Position numbers and translations under genes: made by a program
NCBI GenBank assembly: GCA_009691145.1
Contig: SHVG01000003.1
Span: forward strand, 1-54,908
Source of the DNA: Candidatus Planktophila sp.
Lineage (GTDB): Bacteria; Actinomycetota; Actinomycetes; Nanopelagicales; Nanopelagicaceae
Direction: 5' to 3'
DNA: 54,908 nt
Shown: positions 9,721 to 54,908 of the stretch, in pieces
Layout of the letters: each line of letters begins with the position of its first letter
Position numbering within the stretch: position 1 is the first letter of the stretch
Notes under the pieces: generated by a model
The model's input: only the letters and a program-made list of their open reading frames with translations
What the model was told of the DNA's origin: nothing
The model's database searches: none

Positions 9721-10608
9721 ATGGCACAAGAAACAGGTACTGGGCGAGTCAAGCGTGGCATGGCTGAGTTGCTCAAAGGCGGAGTCATCATGGATGTCGT
9801 TAACGCCGAGCAGGCAAAGATCGCCGAAGATGCTGGCGCAGTTGCCGTTATGGCGCTAGAGCGCGTACCTGCAGATATTCGCGCCCAAGGTGGCGTTGCA
9901 CGTATGTCAGATCCCGACATGATTGAAAAGATTAAGGCCGCTGTCTCTATCCCAGTAATGGCTAAGGCCCGCATTGGACACTTTGTTGAGGCACAGGTTT
10001 TGCAATCACTCGGAGTCGACTACATCGATGAGTCTGAAGTTCTAACGCCAGCAGATTACAAAAACCATATCGATAAGTGGAACTTCACCGTTCCATTTGT
10101 ATGTGGTGCAACAAATCTTGGCGAGGCACTGCGACGCATCAACGAGGGCGCTGCAATGATTCGCTCCAAGGGCGAGGCCGGCACTGGCGATGTTTCAAAT
10201 GCTATGCAGCACATGCGCGAAATTAACGATGAGATTCGTCGTCTCTCATCACTTCGTGAAGATGAGTTATACGTCGCAGCAAAAGAGTTACAAGCACCAT
10301 ATGAGTTAGTTAAAGAGGTTGCTGAAAAGGGCAAGCTCCCAGTTGTTCTCTTTACCGCTGGTGGAATCGCAACTCCGGCCGATGCTGCACTAATGATGAG
10401 CATGGGCGCAGATGGGGTATTCATCGGCTCAGGAATCTTTAAATCAAGTAACCCAGCGCAGCGTGCAGCTGCATGTGTGCGTGCAACTACTTTCTGGGAT
10501 GATCCAAAGGTTATCGCCGATGCCTCTCGCGGCTTAGGTGAGGCAATGGTTGGTATCAACGTGGCAGATCTTCCAGTACCACACCGTCTTGCAGAGCGTG
10601 GTTGGTAG
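9721..10608 (+). CDS. pdxS: Pyridoxal 5'-phosphate synthase lyase subunit PdxS
   Basis: [44 protein letters not shown]. Confidence 0.98.
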
Positions 10609-27319: not shown

Positions 27320-27745
27320 ATGCAACGAGGCCGCCGTATCGCCTTTGATTACGGTGATGTACGAATCGGTGTAGCTATATGTGATCCCGACGCAATTCTG
27401 GCATCGCCACTGACTACGCTCTCATCGAGTGATAAGAAACTTATCTTGGAGCTCACAGAGATACTGACAGAGTACGAGCCAGTCACAATTTATGTAGGAA
27501 AGCCATCGAATATGGATGGTAGTGCTGGCGCAGCGGCGGAAAAGACGGTTCAATTCTGCGCTCTCCTTGCAACATTAACTACGGCTCCAATCGTGGCTAT
27601 AGATGAGCGGTTATCAACGGTCAGCGCTGCAAGGAGTATGCGGGATTCAGGAGTTAAGGCAAAGGCGGCTAAATCACGTATCGATCAAGCTGCAGCGGTA
27701 GCTATATTGGAGTTTGCTCTAGCGATTGAAAAAAACATTCCATGA
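27320..27745 (+). CDS. ruvX: Holliday junction resolvase-like protein RuvX/YqgF
   Basis: RRIAFDYGDVRIGVAICDPDAILASPL; DERLSTVSA. Confidence 0.92.
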   Translation: MQRGRRIAFDYGDVRIGVAICDPDAILASPLTTLSSSDKKLILELTEILTEYEPVTIYVGKPSNMDGSAGAAAEKTVQFCALLATLTTAPIVAIDERLSTVSAARSMRDSGVKAKAAKSRIDQAAAVAILEFALAIEKNIP

Positions 27746-28758
27746 AGTTGGCAAGGGTGGCAGGTGCACTGGCATTTGTTGTTGCACTGAGTTTTTCCCT
27801 GCATATGGCGCGCAGCAATGTCGCGCCTGCGCCGGATTTTCCTACCCGTGTCATAGCAGCTAATGATCCTGAAGTCATCGTCGATATTGCTAGTGGCACA
27901 TCGGGTTCAGAGGTTGCAGCCCTACTTTTTAAAGAGAAGGTCATCAAATCCTCCTCGGCATACTTTCGCATCGCAGTTGCAGAAAAGAGATCAGCGAAGG
28001 TATCACCAGGTGCTCACCGCTTAACGCTTACCATCTCTGCAGCCCAAGCCCTGGACCAGTTGCTGGATCCGACACGGATCCCGAATCTTATAAAGGTATT
28101 TGAAGGCGCGTGGAAGAGTGAGATTGTTGATTCATTGCGTATCTATGGCTTCACGGAAAAGGAGATAGCCAGCGCATTTAAGGCACTTGTCCTGCCCGCC
28201 GGTTTCGACAGCGCTGAAGGTCTTTTGTTTCCAGCTCAATATAGTTTTGCTAGTGGCACTAACGCTACGCAGATGGTGCAGGCGATGCTCGATCGATTTA
28301 AGAGCGAGAGGATAGGCCGAGAGATTTTAAGTGCAAGCGGAAAATACTCTGCAGTTGAGCTGTTGACTATTGCATCTATCGTTCAGTCAGAGGGTGATAC
28401 TAAGGATTTCGATAAGATCGCTCGCGTAATCTTGAATCGGTTGAAGATATCCATGCCTCTGCAGATGGACTCAACCGTTCATTACATTAAAAAGATACGT
28501 GGGGAGATATTTTTAAGTACCTCATCAACGCTTATTAAATCCCCGTACAACACCTACAAACATTATGGTTTACCTCCAACACCTATCGGAAACCCTGGTG
28601 TTGATGCTATGTCTGCCACCCTAAATCCCGTCCCCGGCGACTGGCTCTACTTCATTACAGTTGCCCCAGGGGATACACGCTTCACGGCATCTAACGATGA
28701 GTTTGTTACCTGGAAGTTTCTCTATGAAAAGAATCGAAAGGCGGGTGCATTCAAATGA
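27742..28758 (+). CDS. mltG: Endolytic transglycosylase MltG (YceG-like)
   Basis: LTIASIVQSEGDTKDFDKIARVILNRLKISMPLQMDSTVHY; SPYNTYKHYGLPPTPIGNPG. Confidence 0.92.
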   Translation: MKLARVAGALAFVVALSFSLHMARSNVAPAPDFPTRVIAANDPEVIVDIASGTSGSEVAALLFKEKVIKSSSAYFRIAVAEKRSAKVSPGAHRLTLTISAAQALDQLLDPTRIPNLIKVFEGAWKSEIVDSLRIYGFTEKEIASAFKALVLPAGFDSAEGLLFPAQYSFASGTNATQMVQAMLDRFKSERIGREILSASGKYSAVELLTIASIVQSEGDTKDFDKIARVILNRLKISMPLQMDSTVHYIKKIRGEIFLSTSSTLIKSPYNTYKHYGLPPTPIGNPGVDAMSATLNPVPGDWLYFITVAPGDTRFTASNDEFVTWKFLYEKNRKAGAFK

Positions 28759-53504: not shown

Positions 53505-53514
53505 CTTCCAAGTT

Positions 53515-53635
53515 GTTCCGGGGGTCGGTGATAATTCCGAACCGGCGGTAAAGTCCGCGACCCGATCACATCCAGTGATCGGTTGATTTGGTGTAAATCC
53601 AAAACCGACAGTTAAAGTCTGGATAAAGGGACATA
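53515..53635 (+). ncRNA. FMN riboswitch (RFN element)
   Basis: Conserved cores: GGGGTCGGTGATAATTCCGAACCGGCGGTAAAGTCCGCGACCCG, GGTTGATTTGGTGTAAATCCAAAACCGACAGTTAAAGTCTGGAT. Confidence 0.95.
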
Positions 53636-53671
53636 CAACTAGGTGCACCGTGCACTCTGGTTGTGATGTTG

Positions 53672-53706: not shown

Positions 53707-54384
53707 GTGAATATCATTACCTGGCTTTTCGAAACGAATATTAACTTTGGCAGTAAATCAATCCCTGTCCGCGAAATTATCGGTGGCACATTAGGCCTAA
53801 CAAGTGCCATCTTAGGTATGCGTAGAAAAGTATCGGCATGGCCGGTCGGAATTCTCGGAGATGCGCTCCTCTTCACCGTATTTCTTGGCGCCGTATTTGC
53901 CTATGCCGATCAACCAGCGGCGAATTTTTATGGGCAAGCTAGCCGCAACTTATTGCTCATTATTGTGAGTATTTATGGATGGATTCGCTGGTCACAGCAT
54001 CGTCGCAATAACGGCAACACACAGCCACCAGTATCACCACGATGGACAACTACACGAGAGAAGTTGATTCTTGTGCCAACGATTATCTTCTTCTTCTTTC
54101 TTTCGATGCAGATCTTTAAGGCCTTGGGTGAGAGCGGAACCTGGCTACTGGTAGATACATGGATCTTCACCGGTACAGCCCTTGCTACCTTTGGTATGAG
54201 TCGTGGCTACGTTGAGTTCTGGCTAGTCTGGGTCGCTGTCGACTTAGTCGGAGTGCCCTTCGCATTTAAGAATGGCTACTATCCAACGGGTACGTTGTAT
54301 GCAATCTACCTCCCATTTGTTCTGTGGGGCTTTGTTTCCTGGCTTCGCATCTCAAAGCTTGAGGCTTTACGAGTGAAGCGATAG
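53707..54384 (+). CDS. PnuC-family transporter, probable riboflavin transporter RibM/PnuX type
   Basis: Multi-TM PnuC-like: WPVGILGDALLFTVFLGAVFADQ..., NFYGQASRNLLLIIVSIYGWIRW; immediately downstream of the FMN riboswitch. Confidence 0.85.
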   Translation: MNIITWLFETNINFGSKSIPVREIIGGTLGLTSAILGMRRKVSAWPVGILGDALLFTVFLGAVFAYADQPAANFYGQASRNLLLIIVSIYGWIRWSQHRRNNGNTQPPVSPRWTTTREKLILVPTIIFFFFLSMQIFKALGESGTWLLVDTWIFTGTALATFGMSRGYVEFWLVWVAVDLVGVPFAFKNGYYPTGTLYAIYLPFVLWGFVSWLRISKLEALRVKR

Positions 54385-54689
54385 TAATCTCACGCAAAGA
54401 TTTTGCGATGCCTGCAGATCTAGAGGTTCTTATTCGCCGCTTAGAAGGTCTCGTAACGGCCCGCAGATATGTTTTGCTTGATTACGATATTGAGAAGGTT
54501 AATGTGGAAGCGGCCTGTGTAATAACACCGGGTTTAGAGTCACCCACAATCTCACCACTACGGAAGTTGGATTGGGTTGCAGTACGGGCAATGGTCCTGC
54601 GCAAGGATGCAAACCGAGTGATGGATGAGCTGTGGTCAGTTGGTGCGCGCGGGATTCTCGTAACCGATATTCACGCCTGTAGATTGTAA
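54363..54689 (+). pseudogene. hisG: HisG (ATP phosphoribosyltransferase) C-terminal domain remnant; ORF with ATG at 54408, homology upstream to about 54372
   Basis: RRLEGLVTARRYVLLDYDIEKVNVEAACVITPGLESPTISPLRKLDWVAVRAMVLRKDANRVMDELWSVGARGILVTDIHACRL matches the long-form actinobacterial HisG C-terminus; no catalytic domains upstream. Confidence 0.8.
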
Positions 54690-54692
54690 GGA

Positions 54693-54887
54693 TTAATCCT
54701 CTTCAATAGCCTCACGTGGAATCCCGAGCAGATATAAAACAGAGTCAAGATATGGTGCGCGGGCTAAAACGCTAAAGAGCGCCTCAGTGATTCCCTCTCT
54801 ATCGACCCCACTGAGCAGGATTAGGCCTGTGAACTGCTCGGTAACGGGTGTGGGTGCCATAAGAAGTGCAAGGTTATCGCGAATCAC
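54693..54887 (-). CDS. Small hypothetical protein with weak ACT-like motif
   Basis: LILLSGVDREGITEALFSVLA; in-frame stop upstream at about 54894; GTG 54887 or ATG 54860 start. Confidence 0.45.
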   Translation of the reverse strand: MIRDNLALLMAPTPVTEQFTGLILLSGVDREGITEALFSVLARAPYLDSVLYLLGIPREAIEED

Positions 54888-54908
54888 GTTGCGTCAATGC
54901 CCATATTC

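Follow-up and report, generated by a model that had tools for sequence, protein, structure and literature searches.

The DNA analysed here (the window, 54,908 nucleotides) is contig C7 of a 'Ca. Planktophila' MAG (G000; 1.08 Mb in 58 contigs, 79% complete), and the end of the window is the end of that contig. Across the genus, and in the nearest relative found (G085, WLHF01000006.1; 82% DNA identity), the locus in question reads rpe, pnuX (where present), hisE, hisG and serB, the last on the minus strand, followed by an ABC ATPase gene and ung. The relatives carry rpe-pnuX-hisE-hisG-serB unbroken, with a hisG of 281 aa, and HisG was full length wherever it was found among the congeners of our first search. 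At the end of the window lie the following features:

53510–53637, plus strand: FMN riboswitch (RFN element) preceding the Pnu-type gene (Rfam RF00050, 92.1 bits against a gathering score of 66.2)
53707–54384, plus strand: Pnu-family transporter gene, probably PnuX (riboflavin) (PF04973, 145.9 bits)
54354–54366, plus strand: deletion junction 1 (alignment to G085 and other relatives)
54363–54689, plus strand: hisG 3' remnant encoding the HisG C-terminal regulatory domain (PF08029; 87% amino acid identity to G085 HisG)
54693–54887, minus strand: serB stub, 64 aa (residues 1–39 and 382–403 of a relative's SerB match here by tblastn)
54755–54762, minus strand: deletion junction 2, within serB, with 1026–1038 bp missing (alignment to relatives)
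54760–54908, no strand assigned: exact 149-bp overlap with the first bases of contig C41 (L054, positions 1–149; contig comparison)

The gene upstream of the remnant had been called pnuC in a first-pass annotation of this DNA. Its Pnu family membership stands, while the name is better replaced: as a Pnu protein under FMN riboswitch control, it is more readily read as a PnuX-type riboflavin transporter. In acI strain A4, an FMN riboswitch and Pnu gene in this arrangement were proposed to mark the riboflavin transporter PnuX, according to a section of the study of four acI genomes (PMC5301498).

The 93-aa ORF reported downstream (54408–54689, plus strand) is indeed in the ORF list, and its frame is open from 54363, translating to GFTSEAIVISRKDFAMPADLE...ILVTDIHACRL and a stop (the start is also given as GFTSEAIVISRKDFAMPADLEVLIRRLEG...DIHACRL and a stop). 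A Pfam search with the remnant returned HisG_C (PF08029; 96.7 bits, E = 8.6e-28, profile positions 1–72 of 73) and no other family, and over 106 aa it is 87% identical to G085 HisG. With a full-length HisG of a relative as query, residues 166–281 aligned at 54348–54686 (76% identity, E = 3.7e-50), and nothing beyond this site was matched in the whole genome at E <= 10; the second complete hisG that the first-pass annotation had suggested looking for is thus not present in the assembly. The remnant had also been described as devoid of the N-terminal catalytic domains, and PF01634 is found nowhere in G000. It therefore resembles full-length actinobacterial HisG (PF01634 plus PF08029) in its C-terminal domain but, with neither catalytic domains nor pathway partners, cannot be an ATP phosphoribosyltransferase.

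Alignment to intact relatives bears out the proposal that a deletion removed the 5' part of hisG, and, as these keep an intact orthologue in this position, allows the junction to be mapped. In the G085 alignment, similarity to pnuX stops near 54353 and similarity to hisG begins near 54366, close to the bracket of 54360–54372 first suggested, and seven of eight further relatives gave a matching span to within a few bases; for the eighth (L072), no position could be assigned to the pnuX side. Missing at the junction are about 846–858 bp of the relatives' sequence, comprising the pnuX tail, about 180 hisG codons and the entire hisE, a loss by the same deletion that had gone unremarked. The in-frame translation upstream of the 54408 ATG is HisG-like, as claimed (LTSEAIVIARKGF in G085 versus FTSEAIVISRKDF), and HisG codons begin at about 54363–54366, inside the final few codons of the Pnu ORF (end at 54384). 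Pnu proteins of relatives terminate in REANSRPVVVAS or KLEANSEPAVVGA; as a result of the deletion, the ORF here closes instead with about five out-of-frame codons contributed by hisG sequence beyond the junction (EA followed by LRVKR and a stop). At the junctions only a few bases are shared and the aligned flanks lack long repeats, and thus we claim no recombination mechanism.

The rest of the histidine pathway is missing as well. In relatives, dnaE is followed by hisD-C-B-H-A-F-I; in G000 the entire operon is gone from this locus on contig C28, where only 118 bp separate dnaE from the MauE region:

Contig C28 of G000 (locus L160), about 27682–27800: in-frame fusion of a hisD 5' scrap and a hisI 3' scrap, where relatives carry hisDCBHAFI

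Beyond dnaE, about 23 hisD codons are followed by the final hisI codons (QSQLPP joined to GQACHTGNATCFHKPVEINAD and a stop) and then by the next genes; in translation, the hisD N-terminal codons VIRTVDLRGRALTKAAYQSQLPP run into the hisI C-terminus ACHTGNATCFHKPVEINAD and a stop. Like the serB stub, this scrap retains the start of its first gene and the stop of its last. The neighbourhood also varies in another respect: in G104, trpE, trpC, trpB and trpA separate hisI from the MauE-like gene (L160 and L074 compared with L075), whereas in G085 and G000 they are absent there and a small membrane-protein ORF alone remains. A survey of the other his genes, also suggested by the first-pass annotation, found no HisD (PF00815), true HisE or HisA/F in G000, although in a 79% complete assembly of 58 contigs such absence is less than absolute. 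Two candidates, a PF01503 match on contig C49 for HisE and a PF00977 match at 10282–10470 of the window for HisA/F, were rejected as weak hits to other genes, with low scores and short matches.

Histidine-gene loss of this kind is apparently rare within the genus. HisD was found in 128 of 135 genomes, including all 44 of good quality (completeness of 90% or more, contamination of 5% or less), and HisG_C in 125, among which G000 alone has a short HisG_C frame in mid-contig. A 79-aa HisG_C frame in G089 was considered as a second short case and set aside, as it is cut by the end of a 3711-bp contig; the HisGs of G106 and G068 (251 and 237 aa) start near their contig starts.

Is the remnant still under selection? 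An estimate of dN/dS on the remnant, another of the checks first proposed, was made with a codon model of 13 taxa, which gave an omega of 0.12 on the window branch against 0.039 in the background (2dlnL 5.4); omega = 1 on that branch was rejected (2dlnL 7.2). With omega so far below 1, the branch has been mostly constrained, which points either to a loss that is young compared with the divergence from G085 or to some lingering constraint; under the model, full release after the deletion would mean that, as a rough figure, about a tenth of the branch has been free. Constraint is relaxed, as expected of a pseudogene relic, with a similar rise in one of the two control genes of the codon models (rpe and pnu): rpe reached 0.127 on the same branch. 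The branch omega is therefore not a clean test, and only a count of changes at invariant sites is specific to hisG. By that count, the remnant carries four changes (Q26E, V28L, Q65R, T81A) at the 53 columns that are invariant in 97 other HisGs. When each of the 97 was left out in turn, none (88 sequences) or one (9) such change appeared, and the same count gave none for the window's pnuX and one for its rpe. The Poisson chance of four changes is about 3e-6 at the average rate, rising to 3e-4 if the rate is tripled, figures that are approximate because the sequences are related.

Immediately beyond the remnant, serB has been gutted, a feature absent from the first-pass annotation. SerB is 401–406 aa in relatives; here its N-terminal ~42 residues are joined in frame to its C-terminal ~22, with ~340 internal codons lost. 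The exact overlap of contigs C7 and C41 starts at 54760, coincident with the serB junction, which suggests a branch in the assembly graph and possibly the coexistence of intact and deleted alleles. In the latter case the population would hold both deleted and intact serB (and possibly hisG), and the contig would have broken where the two allele paths merge. We regard such polymorphism as a possibility to be taken seriously, if a doubtful one: the overlap begins just where the paths of the two alleles would meet, but a relative's SerB as query found no intact serB piece in the bin, and no contig break accompanies the hisG junction. It is in any case compatible with the reading of the hisG remnant as a pseudogene relic.

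The same overlap, with its likeness to an assembly-graph branch, and the occurrence of two ~1-kb deletions in the final ~550 bp of a MAG contig might also point to an artefact, in which the contig end was misjoined over an intact hisE-hisG-serB in a prototrophic organism. This we consider improbable. The missing hisE/hisG DNA is found nowhere else in the genome, and hisDCBHAFI is independently gone from the middle of another contig, where both end genes have left scraps. Beyond the overlap, C41 continues with the ABC ATPase, ung and a permease in conserved gene order, so that no random joining took place here and no distant piece has been brought in. Finally, the relaxed constraint on the hisG remnant is unexpected for an intact gene, and its four invariant-site changes indicate that it has begun drifting, which argues against misassembly of such a gene. 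The remnant is thus probably not a misassembly product.

The first-pass annotation had left the choice between recent loss and a retained regulatory domain. Loss is favoured, as hisE and hisDCBHAFI are gone and invariant HisG sites have been altered; that the 93-aa protein might instead be kept to bind histidine or another ligand in a new role appears very unlikely. Its open frame, complete HisG_C domain, ATG at 54408 and an omega well below 1 along the whole branch would suit such a role, but the HisG catalytic domain, HisE, HisD and HisA/F are all missing, leaving nothing to regulate, and four otherwise invariant sites have changed. Moreover, the ATG, at a position that is mostly Ile in relatives, has no ribosome-binding-like sequence just upstream, and far from being conserved across species, a stand-alone HisG_C ORF is unique to this genome among the 135 of the genus. 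A search of the literature for stand-alone HisG regulatory domains returned nothing on point. The HisZ system likewise has its regulator as a separate protein, but HisZ is HisRS-like rather than a HisG_C fragment, and G000 lacks the short-form HisG (HisGS) with which it works. (The HisZ-HisGS system is described in a section of PMC9734150.) That a free HisG regulatory domain would persist as a functional histidine-binding protein after histidine synthesis has been lost seems, judging by these features, scarcely credible.

We conclude that the 93-aa ORF is very probably a pseudogene relic, and that the histidine pathway was lost by a few medium-sized deletions, two or more in number, in this 'Ca. 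Planktophila' lineage. The remnant itself is a genuine decaying relic rather than a working regulatory domain. As comparison with relatives shows, a ~0.86-kb deletion joined the pnuX tail to hisG at about codon 182, taking hisE with it, while a separate deletion took hisD-C-B-H-A-F-I and left the hisD/hisI scrap; a third took the core of the adjoining serB, and presumably SerB function with it. The order of these events is our inference. On this reading, uptake of external histidine, and perhaps of serine, is predicted for the organism, and the HisG C-terminal domain, which has no catalytic partner and is presumably dispensable, is drifting. The need for serine is less certain than that for histidine, since the SerB query had two weak HAD-like matches elsewhere in the genome.

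Small genomes and pathway loss are shared with other streamlined freshwater acI Actinobacteria ('Ca. Planktophila' and 'Ca. Nanopelagicus'), for which sections of two published studies report many auxotrophies, for vitamins and some amino acids (PMC5574706, PMC7527133). In contrast to G000, the four complete acI genomes of PMC5301498 are predicted to encode synthesis of the full set of 20 amino acids. The excerpts of the acI literature that we consulted contain no description of complete histidine-pathway loss with visible relics. The case is a fresh example of a known process, the commonplace loss of genes from a shrinking genome, in which an amino acid pathway has been caught during its erasure in an abundant freshwater lineage where the histidine pathway is near-universal. 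Fresh relics at hisG, hisD/hisI and serB make it possible to date the losses, to place them in sequence and to test the result in populations, which bears on the way in which streamlined bacteria become dependent on their neighbours.
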